Shown: piece after piece, positions 16,180-21,353 of the stretch
Layout of the letters: each line of letters starts with the position of its first letter
Numbering within the stretch: the stretch's first letter is position 1
From: a virus
Length of the DNA stretch: 21,353 bases
Direction: 5' to 3' (one strand)
IMG/VR virus record: IMGVR_UViG_3300042509_000119
Coordinates: 1 to 21,353 of that record
Position numbers and translations under genes: made by a program
The notes under the pieces: model-generated
Told to the model about the DNA's origin: nothing
The model's database searches: none
Seen by the model: the letters and a program-made list of their open reading frames with translations, nothing else

Positions 16180-18261
16180 ATGACTAAGCAGGTTCAACGC
16201 CGCCGTGGGACTTCCACCCAGCACACCAGCTTCACGGGTGCCGAGGGTGAAATCAGCGTCAACACGACCAACAAGTCGATCCACGTTCACGACGGAACGA
16301 CGGCTGGCGGTGTGGAAGCGGCGCGGGCTGATCTTGCCAATGTCTCCGACACCAGCCTGAACAATGCCCTCTCGGGCAACACGCTGGCATCCCTTACCAT
16401 CACCTCCGCCGACATCAACGGCGGCACCATTGATGGCACGACCATCGGCGGCACGTCTCCGGCTGCTGTCACTGGAACGACCATCACGGCCACTGGCGAC
16501 GTGACCATCCCCGACAAGATCATCCACGCTGGCGATACCAATACCGCCATTCGTTTCCCTGCGGCTGATACCGTGACGGTGGAGACGAGTGGGGCTGAGC
16601 GGTTGCGGGTGGATAGTTCGGGGAATGTGCTGGTCGGAACCACCTCCGCTCCTGCTACGGCGAGTCTGCTCACCTTGTCAGCGCCCGCAAACACACTTTA
16701 CGGAACCTTTAATGCGGCAGGGCAGACATACAGTTACTTGACGATGCAGACGAGCGGAACGGATTTTGGCTACATTGGCCCCGGCGCTCTGGATTTGCCA
16801 GCCACTATGAGCATTGTTGCTGCTGGCGCTCGTTCTCTTACTCTTGGCACCAACGGCGCAGAACGTATGCGGATTACCTCTGCTGGTGATGTGGGGATCG
16901 GTGCTACGCCGACAGGGTTTGGCCGCTTTGAAGTAACTCAGGCAACCAACAAGCGCATCTTAACTTCGACCGCTGCGGCTTACGGTGGAAACGCCTTTGT
17001 TGGCATTAATGATGCTGGTGCAGAAGTCGCCTTTGGTATTGCAGGAAGCCAGCTTATTTTTGCCACTGGTGCCACAGAACGCCTCCGCATCGACAGCAGC
17101 GGCAACGTGGGGATTGGGACGAGTAGTCCTACTGCGGCAAAACTTGTCGTTACAACAGGCGATACCGCGCAGACAGCGCAATTTCAAGGGGCTACAGGAA
17201 GGGTTCGCGTTCGGGGGTATCAAGACGCGACGAGTGGCGGTATAATTGACAGCACCAACACTGCGGAAAACGCGTACGCTCCGCTTACGTTGCAGGCCTC
17301 TACGCTTCGGCTGCTAGGCAACAATGCAACTGGAATTACTGTAGACGCATCAGGCAACGTGGGGATTGGGACGAGCAGCCCATATGCGGATACTGGTTAT
17401 CAGGCGCTCGACATTCGTGGAAGCACTGGGGCGCAAATTCAGCTTGGCACTACTTCTGGGCGTGAAGGAGAAATCTCCTCAAACGCTACAAGCGGCCTGA
17501 CCCTCAATACAATCAACGTCACGCCGATTAGGTTTTTCACTAACGGCAATGAACGCATGCGTATCGACGGATCAGGCAACGTGGGGTTTGGCTTGACCTC
17601 TCCCAGCTATAAAGTCCATGCTTCTGGTTATCTTGCTTCAACCGCCCAAGGCACAACCTCGCTCTTTGGGTCCGACAGCACCGGGACATTTGTAGGAAAC
17701 ACCTCGGCTACGGCACCTGTCTATTTTTGGACAAACGGTGCAGAACGCGCCCGCATCGACAGCAGCGGGAACCTGCTGGTTGGGACGACGAGTGCGTCCT
17801 GTGGCGGCTCTACGATGCGCCAGCATGTCAGCGCCACTGATTTTGTTCTGGGCGTCACAACTGCTGCCTCTGGAAATACGCAAGCTGTTCGTTTCGCCTA
17901 CGGAACTACAGCAGTTGGTTCAATCACTTTAACTGGCTCCGCCACCACCTACGCCACCACGTCCGACTACCGCCTGAAAGAGAACGTCCAGCCCATGCAG
18001 GATGCTCTGGCGAAGATCGCCCAGTTGAACCCTGTGACCTACACATGGAAGGCTGACGGCTCGGACGGCCAAGGCTTCATCGCGCATGAACTGCAAGCTG
18101 TCGTGCCTAATTGCGTATCGGGTGAGAAGGACGCTGTAGATGCCGAGGGCAACCCGCAGTATCAGGGCGTAGACACCTCGTTCTTGGTCGCCACCTTGGT
18201 GAAAGCCGTTCAGGAACTCAAGGCCGAGGTTGACAGCCTCCGCGCACAACTTAACCCCTAA
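16180..18261 (+). CDS. Tail fibre with C-terminal S74 intramolecular chaperone
   Basis: This is a 693-residue fibre. The N-terminus (QRRRGTSTQHTSFTGAEGEI, then HVHDGTTAGG) is the attachment segment seen in many fibres. Six repeats of the type (G)xERxRIDSSGNVGIGTSSP lie at about residues 138-540, a common fibre shaft motif. The end is an S74 peptidase/chaperone: TSDYRLKENVQPMQDALAKI, LNPVTYTWKADG, then QGFIAHELQAVVP and a terminal coiled coil AVQELKAEVDSLRAQ. S595 and K600 have the Ser(+5)Lys spacing of the known self-cleaving dyad, so about 99 residues would be released after trimer folding. GAGGTG precedes the start. It should bind the host surface receptor together with the J-like tip. Confidence 0.92.
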   Translation: MTKQVQRRRGTSTQHTSFTGAEGEISVNTTNKSIHVHDGTTAGGVEAARADLANVSDTSLNNALSGNTLASLTITSADINGGTIDGTTIGGTSPAAVTGTTITATGDVTIPDKIIHAGDTNTAIRFPAADTVTVETSGAERLRVDSSGNVLVGTTSAPATASLLTLSAPANTLYGTFNAAGQTYSYLTMQTSGTDFGYIGPGALDLPATMSIVAAGARSLTLGTNGAERMRITSAGDVGIGATPTGFGRFEVTQATNKRILTSTAAAYGGNAFVGINDAGAEVAFGIAGSQLIFATGATERLRIDSSGNVGIGTSSPTAAKLVVTTGDTAQTAQFQGATGRVRVRGYQDATSGGIIDSTNTAENAYAPLTLQASTLRLLGNNATGITVDASGNVGIGTSSPYADTGYQALDIRGSTGAQIQLGTTSGREGEISSNATSGLTLNTINVTPIRFFTNGNERMRIDGSGNVGFGLTSPSYKVHASGYLASTAQGTTSLFGSDSTGTFVGNTSATAPVYFWTNGAERARIDSSGNLLVGTTSASCGGSTMRQHVSATDFVLGVTTAASGNTQAVRFAYGTTAVGSITLTGSATTYATTSDYRLKENVQPMQDALAKIAQLNPVTYTWKADGSDGQGFIAHELQAVVPNCVSGEKDAVDAEGNPQYQGVDTSFLVATLVKAVQELKAEVDSLRAQLNP
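16591..17796 (+). repeat. Six fibre-shaft repeats (ERxRIDSSGNVGIGT type)
   Basis: Units start near 16591, 16855, 17068, 17331, 17544 and 17737. Each encodes ERLR(I/V)DSSGNV(G/L)(I/V)GT followed by variable sequence. A 23-base identity occurs at 17101-17123 and 17353-17375. Spacing varies (about 190-265 bases), so the motif, not the whole unit, is conserved. Confidence 0.82.
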
Positions 18262-18280
18262 CCCCGAAAGGAGGATCAAG

Positions 18281-18862
18281 ATGGCCGAGAAAAAACCAAA
18301 CGTCATCACGATCAACGACGTGACCGCTTACCCCGTAGAAGGGGTTGACCCCTGTTACTATCTTACCGCCGCCGGAGACGTCTACTCAACAAAAAGAGGG
18401 CTCCCAGAGCGGCTCTCTGGTGTTGTCGGCAATAACGGATACAAGGCATTTACCTTCCGCAACGCTGGAAAGGATGTCCGTTTAAGTCTGCACAGGCTGT
18501 TGGCTGCTCATTTTTGCGAGAAGCCAGATGGCTGTGATGTGGTCAACCACAAGGATGGCGACAAGCTGAACAACGCCATTGAGAACTTAGAGTGGGTCAC
18601 GGCAGGTGATAACGTGCGTCATGCTTATGCGACAGGACTGATGCAGAAGTCGGACTATGTTCACATTGCTAAGATGGTTTTGGCATCACATGGCAGACGC
18701 GCCAAGTTTACAAAGGTCGAGGCCGACCAGATTGCTGAGGAGTACTCCGCGATGGAAAAGCCTGAATACGCAGTCATAGCCAAACGTCTGGGATGTGGCA
18801 CCGAAACGATCCGCAGGATTGTCTTGGGTCAACAGAAGATTTTTAAGGAGATCGCGGCATGA
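18281..18862 (+). CDS. Free-standing HNH homing endonuclease with NUMOD4-like start and HTH
   Basis: This is a 193-residue protein. Residues about 18-80 (YPVEGVDPCYYLTAAGDVYS, GYKAFTFRNAGKDVRLSLHRLLAAHF) fit a NUMOD4-like segment running into the HNH fold. VVNHKDGDKLNNAIENLEWV (88-107) is the HNH core, with H90 and N97/N98, N102 as likely active-site residues. Residues about 143-182 (FTKVEADQIAEEYSA, then IAKRLGCGTETIRRI) form a DNA-binding helix-turn-helix. Such genes cut copies of a locus that lack them and spread by repair. AAAGGAGG at 18267-18274, six bases before the ATG, sets this start; an in-frame ATG at 18230 lies inside the fibre gene. The first 17 residues look unlike an endonuclease start and resemble the next protein's. 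Confidence 0.9.
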   Translation: MAEKKPNVITINDVTAYPVEGVDPCYYLTAAGDVYSTKRGLPERLSGVVGNNGYKAFTFRNAGKDVRLSLHRLLAAHFCEKPDGCDVVNHKDGDKLNNAIENLEWVTAGDNVRHAYATGLMQKSDYVHIAKMVLASHGRRAKFTKVEADQIAEEYSAMEKPEYAVIAKRLGCGTETIRRIVLGQQKIFKEIAA

Positions 18863-19056
18863 AGACCGTAGATATTAACGGAACGGAATATAGTGAAGAC
18901 CAACTGACGGACGAGCAGAAGATGCTCATCAATCACGTTGCTGATCTGGACCGCAAGATCGGTTCGACACGGTTCAACCTTGACCAGCTTCAGGTTGGCC
19001 GTGATGCCTTCGTCAACATGCTCACCGCCTCGCTGGCACAAGGAGAAACCGAATGA
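18859..19056 (+). CDS. Small coiled-coil protein, DUF6447-like
   Basis: This 65-residue protein starts MKTVDINGTEYSEDQLTDEQ and continues with helices NHVADLDRKIGSTRFNLDQL and GRDAFVNMLTASLAQGE. The pattern '(T/D)ING.EY....L(T/S)(D/E)E.K......V..LD..I......L....ARxAF...L' is that of short phage proteins annotated DUF6447, often next to tail fibre genes. No function is known to me. A helical adaptor or fibre-related factor is possible. AAGGAG lies nine bases before the ATG, inside the end of the HNH gene, and the start overlaps the HNH stop as ATGA. The end overlaps the next start as ATGA. Confidence 0.72.
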   Translation: MKTVDINGTEYSEDQLTDEQKMLINHVADLDRKIGSTRFNLDQLQVGRDAFVNMLTASLAQGETE

Positions 19057-19355
19057 CCGCCGTCATCACTTGGAAGATTTCCCAACTCGACCGCAATGCC
19101 GCTGATGGTGGCGTGACGACCGCCCACTGGACCGTGACTGCCGTTGACGGGGAACACAGCGCCTCCGCATACAGCACCGCAGGCTTCACCCCTGACGCAT
19201 CGGCTGCGGGCTTCAAGCCCTACGACAGCCTGACCGAAGCCGACGTGCTGGCGTGGGTCTGGGGTTCCGTGGACAAGGACGCCGCAGAGGCCAGCCTGTT
19301 GCAGCAGATCGAAGCCCAGAAGGCACCTGTCACCCTGACCGGGACGCCGTGGTAA
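19053..19355 (+). CDS. Conserved phage protein, DUF7936-like
   Basis: This 100-residue protein reads MTAVITWKISQLDRNAADGG, then VTTAHWTVTAVDGEHSASAY, LTEADVLAWVWGSVDKDAAE and a PVTLTGTPW end. The 'ITW.I..L.R...DGGV..AHW..TA.DG...A..YGT' pattern, followed by a 'LTE..VL.WV' helix and a 'NP....GTPW' tail, recurs in phage proteins annotated DUF7936. These lie after fibre genes and have no known function. It looks like a small alpha/beta domain with no catalytic motif that I can name. AAGGAG lies about eight bases before the ATG, which overlaps the previous stop (ATGA). One base separates its stop from the next start. Confidence 0.68.
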   Translation: MTAVITWKISQLDRNAADGGVTTAHWTVTAVDGEHSASAYSTAGFTPDASAAGFKPYDSLTEADVLAWVWGSVDKDAAEASLLQQIEAQKAPVTLTGTPW

Positions 19356-19356
19356 A

Positions 19357-19599
19357 ATGACGACCGAGATGCTCTGGAGCCTCGGTCTATCAGCAGCACT
19401 CGGCCTCATTGGCTGGGTGCTGAAAAACCACGTCGAAGAGGTCAAGCGGCTGCAAATCCTGCTGAACAGGACGCGGGAGGAAGTAGCCCGTGACTACGTT
19501 ACGCGGGCCGACATGCACACCGACATGAACCGGGTCATCTCGCGGCTGGACAACCTCGACAAGAAAATCGACGAACTGATGCGGAGCCTTGCCAAATGA
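19357..19599 (+). CDS. Small membrane protein with coiled coil
   Basis: This is an 80-residue protein. Residues about 5-23 (MLWSLGLSAALGLIGWVLK) form one transmembrane segment. The rest is charged and helical with heptad spacing (EEVKRLQILLNRTREEVARD, then ISRLDNLDKKIDELMRSLAK), so a coiled coil is likely. Proteins of this type are frequent in phages near lysis genes and have been called hypothetical or holin-like. A single-TM plus coiled-coil product followed by an overlapping lipoprotein gene also recalls inner/outer spanin pairs, but this is shorter than known inner spanins. Its topology cannot be read with certainty. The stop overlaps the next start as ATGA. Confidence 0.7.
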   Translation: MTTEMLWSLGLSAALGLIGWVLKNHVEEVKRLQILLNRTREEVARDYVTRADMHTDMNRVISRLDNLDKKIDELMRSLAK

Positions 19600-19811
19600 G
19601 ACTTGCCCTCATCCTCTTGGTCGCTGGCTGCGGCCCTGTTACTGTATCGTCCGTGGCCTACACGACGGCCTGCCCGAAAGGTGACCGCCAGTGCGAAATC
19701 CGCCAAAACGCAGAGACCCTGTACTACATGGCGCACGGAGACGCGGCCAACGAACTGCTATGCTCCGGCGATACGCGGGACGTTATGGGTGCGCTCTGCT
19801 CTGTCTACTGA
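19596..19811 (+). CDS. Small cysteine-rich lipoprotein
   Basis: This is a 71-residue protein with a very short signal MRLALILLVAGC, whose VAGC fits the lipobox. Lipid attachment at C12 and envelope location are expected. The mature part has four more cysteines (C26, C33, C56, C68), enough for two disulfides in the periplasm. It overlaps the membrane coiled-coil gene by four bases (ATGA), and the next secreted-protein gene starts 52 bases before its stop. An outer spanin is one possibility given order and lipobox, but spanins are usually Pro-rich and Cys-poor. I do not recognise the family. The start is supported only by the overlap and the signal sequence. Confidence 0.62.
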   Translation: MRLALILLVAGCGPVTVSSVAYTTACPKGDRQCEIRQNAETLYYMAHGDAANELLCSGDTRDVMGALCSVY

Positions 19812-20473
19812 CGACAGCAGCCACCGCCCAAGTCAGCGGTGATCTAAACACCAACAGCGGCAACACCAACTCCACCATCGACAGCGGCAACATTTCGACC
19901 AGCGAGACGCGGAACTACAACGGCGCTGGCTCGTCTCCGTTCTCTACGCCCGTGCCGACAGCCGCAGCGCCGACAGTCATGGGCGGCGGCGGAAATGATA
20001 GCTGCCTGATCCCTAAGCAGCAGGCTTTCCAGATTTCGATCTTCGGACGCGCCGAGGGCAGCATGGAGCAAGATGAGGAGTGCAACCGCCGCAAGGACGC
20101 CCGCCTGCTCGGCACACCGCAAGAAGCTGGCGGGCTGGGCCTGCAAGTCAGTGGTATTTCGGTCATGTGCGACAACGCCCAAATCTACAAAGCTATGGCG
20201 CTGGCCAGCACACCATGCCCGATCTACAGCATTGAGACGGGCAAGCTTCTGGTAGGCCGCGAGGGCTATCTGGCCATGCGTGACAATCCCTACATTTATG
20301 TGGTAGGGTACGCGCAAGATCAGTCCTTCTGGGACACATTCCTGATGATCGGAGAGGAACTGCCCGATGTCGTACCTCAAGAAAGCAGCGGCCCTACTCT
20401 GTCTGAGCGTTTCCGCCGCTCACGCCGATCCGACGATGACGGACCTACAGGGGTCAGCCCAGACAATCCTTAA
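19760..20473 (+). CDS. Secreted protein of unknown function, Sec signal peptide
   Basis: This is a 237-residue protein from the ATG at 19760. That start gives a clean signal peptide: RR at 3-4, a hydrophobic core CALLCLLTTAATA and an Ala-x-Ala cleavage site before Q24. A GTG at 19691 is in frame but would bury it. Residues about 26-50 are Asn/Ser/Thr-rich (NTNSGNTNSTIDSGN), then YNGAGSSPFSTPVPTAAAPT, GGGGNDSCLIPKQQ and a cysteine-bearing domain (SCL, EECNRR, VMCDNAQ, TPCPIY). The 'YNGAG.S......AAAPT....GNDSCL' pattern occurs in phage-encoded secreted proteins whose role is unknown to me. No Shine-Dalgarno sequence is seen, so it is probably coupled to the lipoprotein gene. Its last 107 bases overlap the next gene. 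Its charged C-terminus RFRRSRRSDDD may be constrained by that overlap. Confidence 0.66.
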   Translation: MLRRYAGRYGCALLCLLTTAATAQVSGDLNTNSGNTNSTIDSGNISTSETRNYNGAGSSPFSTPVPTAAAPTVMGGGGNDSCLIPKQQAFQISIFGRAEGSMEQDEECNRRKDARLLGTPQEAGGLGLQVSGISVMCDNAQIYKAMALASTPCPIYSIETGKLLVGREGYLAMRDNPYIYVVGYAQDQSFWDTFLMIGEELPDVVPQESSGPTLSERFRRSRRSDDDGPTGVSPDNP

Positions 20474-21116
20474 CCAGTTGTCAGCGGCCCAGAGCCTGAC
20501 GGCTGGCGCGGTCTACAGTGCTGGACAGGGCGACATCCTCGCACCGGGCGTCATGCAGACGGCGACAGTCACCGAACAGATGCGGCTTGATTACAACGCT
20601 GATGTGCAGGGGGTAATCGACGCGACATACTACAACGCCGAGATGTTGTTTCAGGATCAATACGCCGCAACAATGGTCAATCTCGATTCGGCTGTCGATA
20701 ACCTCGTTGCCGCGACTGCGGTTTTGATGGAGGTGCAGGCGGTGGCCAACATGGCAGCCAACGCCGACACGGTGCAGGAGCAGATGGCCGTGCAGGCTGT
20801 CCTAACCAACAATGACATGACCGTCAGCGCCGCCGACGTGAACAACTACAACAACGCTCTCGGCGCTGTGCAGTCCTACGCCCGCGATGCTGGTGCCTTT
20901 TTGGCGGCCTCCCGCAACACGACCATGACCGGGACTGTGGACGCCTATGCTGCCAACAGCGGCACCAACCTGTACGGCGCGACGGTGGCCTACTCGCCCA
21001 CGTTTGACATCATGAACATCACCGCAGCCAACGTCTTCGGCATTGGCCTGCAAGGGCTGCTTGGTGCTGACACTGTGACGCTGGCCGACGTGTACGCTGC
21101 GGGCTACGGCTCGTGA
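20367..21116 (+). CDS. Secreted Ala/Asn-rich helical protein, Sec signal peptide
   Basis: This 249-residue protein begins MSYLKKAAALLCLSVSAAHA, a textbook signal peptide with AHA cleavage before D21. The mature part has repeating helical, Ala/Val/Asn/Gln-rich stretches: TILNQLSAAQSLTAGAVYSA, RLDYNADVQGVIDATYYNAE, LDSAVDNLVAATAVLMEVQA, ANADTVQEQMAVQAVLTNND and VNNYNNALGAVQSYARDAGA. There is no cysteine after the signal and no motif I can name. Related-looking proteins occur in viral genomes beside the preceding secreted type, so the two may act together in the periplasm or outside the cell. GGAGAGGA lies upstream at 20351-20358. The first 107 bases are shared with the previous gene. The stop overlaps a GTG start (GTGA). 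Confidence 0.68.
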   Translation: MSYLKKAAALLCLSVSAAHADPTMTDLQGSAQTILNQLSAAQSLTAGAVYSAGQGDILAPGVMQTATVTEQMRLDYNADVQGVIDATYYNAEMLFQDQYAATMVNLDSAVDNLVAATAVLMEVQAVANMAANADTVQEQMAVQAVLTNNDMTVSAADVNNYNNALGAVQSYARDAGAFLAASRNTTMTGTVDAYAANSGTNLYGATVAYSPTFDIMNITAANVFGIGLQGLLGADTVTLADVYAAGYGS

Positions 21117-21353
21117 GTGAAGAAGCTGAAACCACTGGCCTGCGGATCGCGGGCTTTGACGTAAAGGGCTGGTGGTTCGCCGCCGCCCTGCCCGTCCTGT
21201 CTGGTATCAGCGGCACGATTTACTATGGCTACGATGTTGTGAACAGGTTCTGGGGCGTGGAGGAAAGCGTTGCCGAAGTTCTGGATGTGGTCAGCCGGGT
21301 GCAAACCCTTGAGCAAGCGATCCAAGACAACGATGTGCGCGGCCTTGCACCGA
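21113..21353 (+). CDS. Membrane protein with coiled coil, 3' end beyond window
   Basis: From a GTG at 21113, which overlaps the previous stop as GTGA, the frame is open for 80 codons to the window edge. The product starts (M)SEEAETTGLRIAGFDVKG, then has a hydrophobic stretch WWFAAALPVLSGISGTIYYG that can span the membrane. A helical charged part follows (VNRFWGVEESVAEVLDVVSR, VQTLEQAIQDND) with coiled-coil spacing. Small proteins of this build are common in phage genomes next to secreted or lysis genes, but I do not recognise a function. The GTG start and coupling are inferred from the overlap, and coding is supported by the open frame and membrane pattern. Its real length is unknown. Confidence 0.62.
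   Translation, partial: MSEEAETTGLRIAGFDVKGWWFAAALPVLSGISGTIYYGYDVVNRFWGVEESVAEVLDVVSRVQTLEQAIQDNDVRGLAP

Follow-up and report, generated by a model that had tools for sequence, protein, structure and literature searches.

Five overlapping open reading frames (ORFs), p1 to p5, close the viral record IMGVR_UViG_3300042509_000119, and all appear to encode envelope-directed proteins. The question raised by this locus is whether these genes form one system, and what such a system would do to the host envelope. The window analysed here is the entire IMG/VR record of 21,353 bases, and its gene content is mostly siphovirus-type morphogenesis (TerL, portal, major head protein, tape measure, distal tail, J, and an S74 fibre). 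Our preferred answer, a tentative one, is that p2–p5 form a transferable late-gene module whose products build an envelope-bridging complex at the lysis stage, doing the outer-membrane step of spanins without belonging to a known spanin family.

Gene layout at the end of the window

The initial annotation described five ORFs with overlaps of 4, 52, 107, and 4 bases, and the same values were recomputed from the coordinates. The order of envelope signals given there was also present: transmembrane (TM) segment plus coiled coil, lipoprotein, two Sec-type proteins, and TM segment plus coiled coil. The p2 lipobox and the Sec-type signals of p3 and p4 were judged by eye, without a predictor. The p2 signal consists of 11 residues followed by the lipobox VAG-C, and the cleavage sites lie between ATA and Q in p3 and between AHA and DP in p4. 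The features are as follows (aa, amino acids):

19357..19599, + strand: p1, small TM and coiled-coil protein of 80 aa; loosely linked member, 36 of 40 loci
19596..19811, + strand: p2, lipoprotein of 71 aa (60 aa mature) with four non-lipid Cys, a small paralogue of the Cys domain in p3; found in 40 of 40 near loci
19671..19799, + strand: four-Cys core of p2, residues 26–68
19760..20473, + strand: p3 (from ATG), Sec-type secreted protein of 237 aa, phrog_20531 (unknown function)
19829..19945, + strand: Asn/Ser/Thr-rich N-terminal region of p3, short in the window; pLDDT <50 at model residues 23–78
20003..20221, + strand: four-Cys domain of p3, residues 82–154, the best conserved part of the family
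20367..21116, + strand: p4, Sec-type secreted protein of 249 aa, predicted helical bundle with a C-terminal sheet; pLDDT 88.3, pTM 0.70
21113..21353, + strand: p5, N-terminal 80 aa of a TM and coiled-coil protein (143 aa in relatives), with the NP[LM] tail past the record end

Related loci were numbered (L), and their division into the groups "window clade," "CRP-like," and "divergent" follows locus number, not a tree. The ORFs p1–p5 are real genes, because p4 differences from L073 numbered 32, 20, and 77 at codon positions 1, 2, and 3 and the 107-base overlap of p3 and p4 is constant, being identical in all 126 window-clade loci scored (duplicate contigs included).

Conservation and mobility of the block

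Relatives were retrieved with p4 as the query (80 of 101 related stretches used), with p3 as the query (80 of 136), and by profile search, in which at least 573 of at least 600 pattern-matched stretches were related and 80 of the 573 were used. The presence of p3 or p4 in the sets retrieved through them is by construction. The order p2-p3-p4-p5 was kept in 67 of 67 distinct window-clade loci holding all four genes. Gene presence was tallied in 40 distinct near loci with at least 8 kb upstream, a match being counted at 60% of gene length; p2 and p3 were found in 40 each, p4 in 39, p5 in 34 (a number reduced by contig ends), and p1 in 36. By the same measure, the J fibre gene of the window was found in 2 loci and the S74 fibre gene in 4. 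Short DNA patches upstream of position 18500 were common to 39 of 141 loci.

Among 140 DNA hits across p3 (duplicates included), the left edge of homology fell in the bin 19350–19399, at the start of p1, in 83 cases, in 19550–19599, at the start of p2, in 17, and in 18850–18899 in another 17. These edges, together with the rarity of the window's fibre genes in relatives, indicate that the block is an exchanged module. A chimeric window record was considered and is unlikely; L008 and L037 have both the tail-fibre region of the window and the block. An HNH endonuclease gene (window 18230–18862), lying directly after the S74 fibre gene, was present in none of the 40 relatives with enough upstream sequence.

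The member least tied to the others is p1, which lies several hundred bases from p2 in, for example, L042, L055, and L106. It matched phrog_462, labelled lipoprotein, at E 2.2e-9, and the Rz-like spanin phrog_739 only at E 0.14. The homologues of p1 (window 19357–19599) appear to be mosaics that combine different front and back halves.

Co-occurrence and order among relatives, which the initial annotation had named as a check, held for p2–p5 and only in part for p1. Its proposal that five genes make one complex survives in the sense that p2–p5 are inherited and exchanged as a unit, and fails in the sense of five equal partners, p1 being loose and the deep core being, from the comparison of distant relatives, p3, the position between p3 and p5 (the p4 slot), and p5. 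The constant parts across distant phages were p3 and p5. Since p2–p5 behave as one inherited and exchanged unit, it is plausible that the exported and membrane proteins form one complex.

A p3 gene was found in 11 of 50,697 phage records (E 0.01 or better), and the named hosts of these phages are Pelagibacter and Roseobacter-group bacteria. The module occurs in podo-, myo-, and sipho-type phage records (HTVC023P, Mosig, and the window, respectively), and carriers of the phrog_20531-type module include phages HTVC023P, CRP-810, and CRP-207, whose records give its genes either no annotation or, in our judgement, a wrong one. A host origin of p3 was considered and seems unlikely: a pattern-limited A2 scan of 84,980 genomes gave 17 loci, whose titles were metagenome-assembled genomes or bins plus one apparent single-cell assembly, and the p3 model matched 16 of them (L225 had no match). 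We read these 17 loci as binned phage DNA. The portions available of the literature on cultured carriers (PMC11288001, PMC9038755, PMC9599517) hold no mention of the module, which does not show its absence from print. The finding is real and extends beyond the initial description, to an envelope module that is both conserved and mobile.

The four-Cys domain shared by p2 and p3

All 14 members of alignment A2 matched phrog_20531. The four Cys of p3 were invariant in the 14 A2 rows and invariant or at least 90% conserved in the 47 A3 rows. The lipobox Cys was retained in 11 of 11 aligned p2 proteins, and the four non-lipid Cys of p2 were conserved. Comparison of the p2 and p3 profiles gave a probability of 90.8 and an E of 1.2e-6 (single comparison) with Cys aligned on Cys, the p2 alignment being shallow (Neff 1.9). 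With the signal removed, the score was 37.1, against 16.8 for the best of 100 column shuffles and 12.1 for the reversed profile. The p2 model also matched p3 ORFs (to 7e-6) and the p3 model matched p2 ORFs (to 2e-7). The central Cys pair is spaced by 23 residues in p2 and in pelagiphage p3, and by 29 in window p3. These profile matches make p2 a lipid-anchored mini-paralogue of the p3 Cys domain. Its predicted location is the outer membrane.

The p3 proteins of L195-type loci have Asn/Thr/Ser repeats that can extend over several hundred residues; the region measures about 40 aa in window p3. A hydrophobic C-terminal p3 tail was seen in several distant phages (L217, L219, L222, L224, L226–L228, and others). 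Among 63 distinct p3, none combined this tail with a neighbouring p2 (23 had p2 only, 13 the tail only, and 27 neither), a pattern confounded by descent.

The p3 model had a pLDDT of 69.7 and a pTM of 0.52; its best Foldseek PDB match was at E 0.74, with Z 2.6 or less, and this non-match is no evidence on the fold. A search of PDB sequences gave no match for the p2 profile A1 to E 5, none for A4 to E 1, and for A3 one match only, to a designed protein at E 0.63.

The p4 slot and p5

Related helical-bundle proteins occupy the p4 slot in the window, CRP-like, and divergent groups, and unrelated secreted proteins occupy it in pelagiphages and in the L195-type loci examined. The slot is filled by secreted proteins of two kinds that are unrelated to each other. 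The p4 model had no Foldseek PDB match below E 0.07, again no evidence on the fold, and VIA Z scores of 7.4 or less, to coiled-coil-like entries.

The C-terminus of p5 was NP[LM] plus 0–4 residues in 116 of 123 distinct loci, despite differing sequence, and none of 4,452 other ORFs passed the same test. The seven misses ended in NPI (4), KPL (2), and NPY (1). A TM cut-off of 1.4 had first passed 102 of 145 loci, losing mostly the window clade; in view of that result it was lowered to 1.0 and distinct p3 were counted, the background being 0 of 4,452 in each test. In all 11 p3-bearing phage records, a TM protein with an NPL or NPM tail was encoded downstream of p3; in HTVC115P its gene was not the one adjoining p4. 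Two tblastn queries with p5 against the phage collection gave hits only in records that also carry p3 (1 of 1 hit for one query and 3 of 3 for the other). The NP[LM] end looks like a docking end.

Two deposited labels look wrong (L128:7321-7743, L129:3292-3873, and L128:5935-6690). "Lysozyme" is given to p5 in the CRP-810 and CRP-207 records, and no lysozyme model matched CRP-810 p5; "OmpA family," given to p3 in the CRP-810 record, is in our view a mislabel.

Lysis genes near the module

The initial annotation stated that no endolysin stands beside the block, which proved to be an artefact of the window edge. All 52 distinct window-clade loci that extend more than 2.3 kb past p5 have, at a median of 1,099 bases after it, an endolysin-type gene. 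It matched PG_binding_1 in L020 (E 1.6e-14) and is deposited as chitinase A in MW202675; its relative in L204 had only a sub-threshold Glyco_hydro_19 match. Between p5 and this gene, a small 2-TM gene was present in 51 of the 52 loci; it belongs to phrog_25359 (unknown function) and matched holin phrog_9987 only at E 0.074. The neighbour survey drew on 275 ORFs (161 clusters), with 109 listed and 84 of them scanned, and considered the 25 most frequent of 44 families.

Other lineages have other lysis genes adjoining the module, which favours a lysis-stage role. An M15_3 peptidase gene directly follows p5 in HTVC023P. In HTVC033P, an Amidase_2 gene precedes p3 by 0.9 kb, and in MW202481 a Phage_lysozyme gene comes 2.0 kb after p3. 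GTA_holin_3TM was found 0.2 kb before p3 in Mosig and about 20 bases after p5 in the L190 contig. In both L204 and L213, 2 bases separate the end of a GH19-model gene from the p3 frame that follows, and GH108 lies near the module in L172.

Two further proteins recur in this neighbourhood. In 41 of the 52 close loci, the interval from the module to the endolysin-type gene contains a staphylococcal-nuclease-like (SNase-like) gene with a signal-like start. The other is a small exported or TM protein with several Cys and the motif YRYPCQDP, encoded after p5; distant lineages have it too, and its L207 form resembles a lipoprotein. Their positions are:

L020:11862-12269; L133:3443-3850: SNase-like protein, PF00565 at E 3e-12 in L020
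L020:11136-11363; L133:2828-3016; L204:9456-9740; L207:9631-9816: YRYPCQDP-motif protein

One site compared in HMO-2011-type phages

The site was marked by a flank gene present in nine distinct HMO-2011-type phages; CRP-235 lacks this gene. In CRP-207, the site holds p2–p5 followed by an EF-hand-like gene (below Pfam cut-offs; 2 TM by eye) that p5 overlaps, and genes of this family also stand directly after p5 in L153 and L058. In CRP-603 and CRP-2, the site holds a single TM-coil gene. In CRP-9, which has no module, it holds an EF-hand-like gene, an endolysin gene, and a gene with a lipobox and a C-terminal TM segment. The same three kinds of gene lie nearer the terminase in CRP-345 and CRP-1, also without the module, and the lipobox protein is labelled "spanin2 family" in the CRP-345 record. 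CRP-13 has an endolysin gene in the region; in HMO-2011 and MW202701, no lysis genes of these kinds were recognised at the site or in the region. The comparison suggests that the module may stand in for lysis functions in HMO-2011-type phages. The u-spanin-like genes are:

L238:2365-2739; L240:4784-5149; L242:4870-5211: u-spanin-like family of HMO-2011-type roseophages, having a lipobox and a TM segment at the C-terminus; no significant Pfam match

Comparison with spanins and weighing of the lysis reading

In the Rz/Rz1 system, a Pro-rich o-spanin gene overlaps or is embedded in the i-spanin gene. The module resembles Rz/Rz1 and u-spanins in that p5 is a single-span coil protein, putatively of inner-membrane type, and p2 a small lipoprotein, often among lysis genes. 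It differs in that two further secreted proteins are encoded between p2 and p5, unlike the o-spanin arrangement, and in that p2 is not universal and is Cys-rich, not Pro-rich (2 Pro in the 60 mature residues). The Rz model PF03245 scored above cut-off in 0 of 30 records; one sub-cut-off match (E 2.2e-4) lay at 28.5 kb in HTVC033P, away from p5. No credible protein of u-spanin shape (lipobox plus C-terminal TM segment) was found near p3 in any of 184 loci. When 206 loci were scanned with laxer criteria, by which 3 of 3 controls were found, there were 46 hits, of which 44 were the 2-TM gene read from inner starts and 2 were without the shape. Judged from sequence, the module is not in any known spanin family.

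The lysis reading builds on what was observed, namely conservation, gene order, signals seen by eye, p2/p3 homology, the p5 tail, and frequent lysis-gene neighbours; the topology, location, mutual binding, and lysis role of the proteins are what we infer. In such an assembly, p5 would span the inner membrane and extend its coiled coil and NP[LM] tail into the periplasm, and p2 would be anchored in the outer membrane through its lipid. The same kind of four-Cys domain would be displayed by p2 and p3, with p3 as the soluble form, and p4 or the unrelated slot protein would be a periplasmic middle piece. After the action of holin and endolysin, the assembly would join or disrupt both membranes.

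Several results weigh against this reading. The p2 model found no p2 in pelagiphages or in L178–L194, which places the outer-membrane lipoprotein outside the core. The p3 repeat region is highly variable in length, unlike a fixed tether, and the charge rule did not settle p5 topology (n=36: N-in 13, N-out 8, tie 15). In CRP-810, the module, at about 45–46 kb, is far from the EF-hand-like and GTA_holin_3TM genes, which are found at 21 kb; in HTVC202P, the M15_3 peptidase gene is about 19 kb from the module on the record (about 10 kb if circular); in AP013540, Amidase_2 is about 13 kb away. The models found no nearby lysis gene in HTVC115P, Baldr, and most CRP-like loci, and no endolysin was recognised at the module in CRP-207. 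The module is far from known lysis genes in several phages, and its linkage to them is not general. The single TM-coil gene of CRP-603 and CRP-2 has relatives that lie elsewhere in other genomes (e.g., CRP-13 and CRP-345). The u-spanin-like profile, A6, was built from the three records that it then matched, and it had no credible match among the other 27, either in the 21 module-bearing or in the 6 module-less records, a count that discounts one match (E 0.0056) inside a 1395-aa frame. Complementarity between the module and the u-spanin-like gene is weak and partly circular, and is unproven because the A6 positives are its source records and the family is absent also from module-less records. 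Moreover, some of these lysis regions contain the CQDP-type exported Cys-rich protein, which could take the place of p2 as outer-membrane partner. The lysis reading is weakened by this extra lipoprotein-like candidate and by the partial circularity.

A more specific proposal, which we regard as rather unlikely as it stands, is that the module defines a new class of multi-protein spanin-like machine in aquatic phages, made of the NP[LM]-tailed coil protein p5 and the soluble four-Cys domain of p3, with p2 or a hydrophobic-tailed form in some lineages and an exchangeable p4 slot.

Alternative explanations

The initial annotation had named lysis and superinfection exclusion as candidate roles, and both still lead. 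Exclusion by p2 is the main rival, though we consider it somewhat improbable. By analogy with T5 Llp and Rtp45, p2 would bind the inner face of the receptor, the soluble p3 would coat receptor-bearing debris, and p4 and p5 would be helpers. In the sections available of PMC12685063, Rtp45 is described as a protein of about 6 kDa with a Cys30-Cys38 disulfide, and exclusion factors are said also to prevent adsorption to cell fragments after lysis. The p2 protein fits the type in being a small lipoprotein of similar mature size (60 aa) with possible disulfides, and in the window it lies downstream of the fibre genes. It differs from them in having four non-lipid Cys, a secreted paralogous neighbour, and a multi-gene unit, and the likeness is one of kind, the p2 profile having no PDB-sequence match to E 5. 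Identity of p2 was at least 83% in 40 of 40 near loci, whereas the J and S74 fibres were present in only 2 and 4 of them, so p2 does not travel with one receptor-binding protein. The deep core is also often without p2.

It is unlikely that p2–p5 form no single complex, each modifying the envelope separately and being kept together by nothing more than gene overlap and recombination. The two unrelated protein kinds in the p4 slot and the varying presence of p2 would agree with this, but p3 and p5 were not seen apart, either in the tblastn searches or in the 11 p3-bearing records.

A surface or periplasmic fibre or matrix is also improbable. Here p3 would be a repeat-rich fibre former with a Cys cap, aggregating cells or debris with a curli-like effect, and the slot proteins would be adhesins. 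The Asn/Thr/Ser repeats of distant p3 would suit such a role, and the slot proteins of HTVC033P and AP013540 bear the deposited name "putative carbohydrate binding domain containing protein." Other pelagiphages and Melnitz are reported to carry curli genes (PMC9599517, PMC7029224, PMC9004378). The module resembles phage curli (type VIII) systems in its exported proteins, its occurrence in phages of aquatic bacteria, and the Asn/Ser/Thr-rich repeats of some p3, but its gene set differs. Membership of the curli system was rejected: CsgG was found in 0 of 13 module-bearing records, with the control positive in 4 of 14 known genomes. A search aimed at CsgG alone revealed no outer-membrane exporter, and the repeat-like region of window p3 is short.

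That the proteins are part of the virion or carried on it is very unlikely: the genes do lie in the late region, by the fibres (window, CRP-810) or before TerL (HTVC202P, AP013540), but the export signals, the p5 TM segment, and the occurrence of the block in phages with different structural genes speak against it.

Significance

The handling of the host outer membrane by aquatic phages is, in our judgement, poorly annotated. The module is common (at least 573 related stretches) and defines the families of the p3 Cys domain, the p5 NP tail, and the p2 paralogue. If the lysis reading is true, it would add a type of spanin; if exclusion is true, it would add a widespread type of exclusion. Often, though not always, near cell-bursting genes in freshwater and marine phages, the module may be an unrecognised device by which many of these phages break or alter the outer membrane of their hosts.

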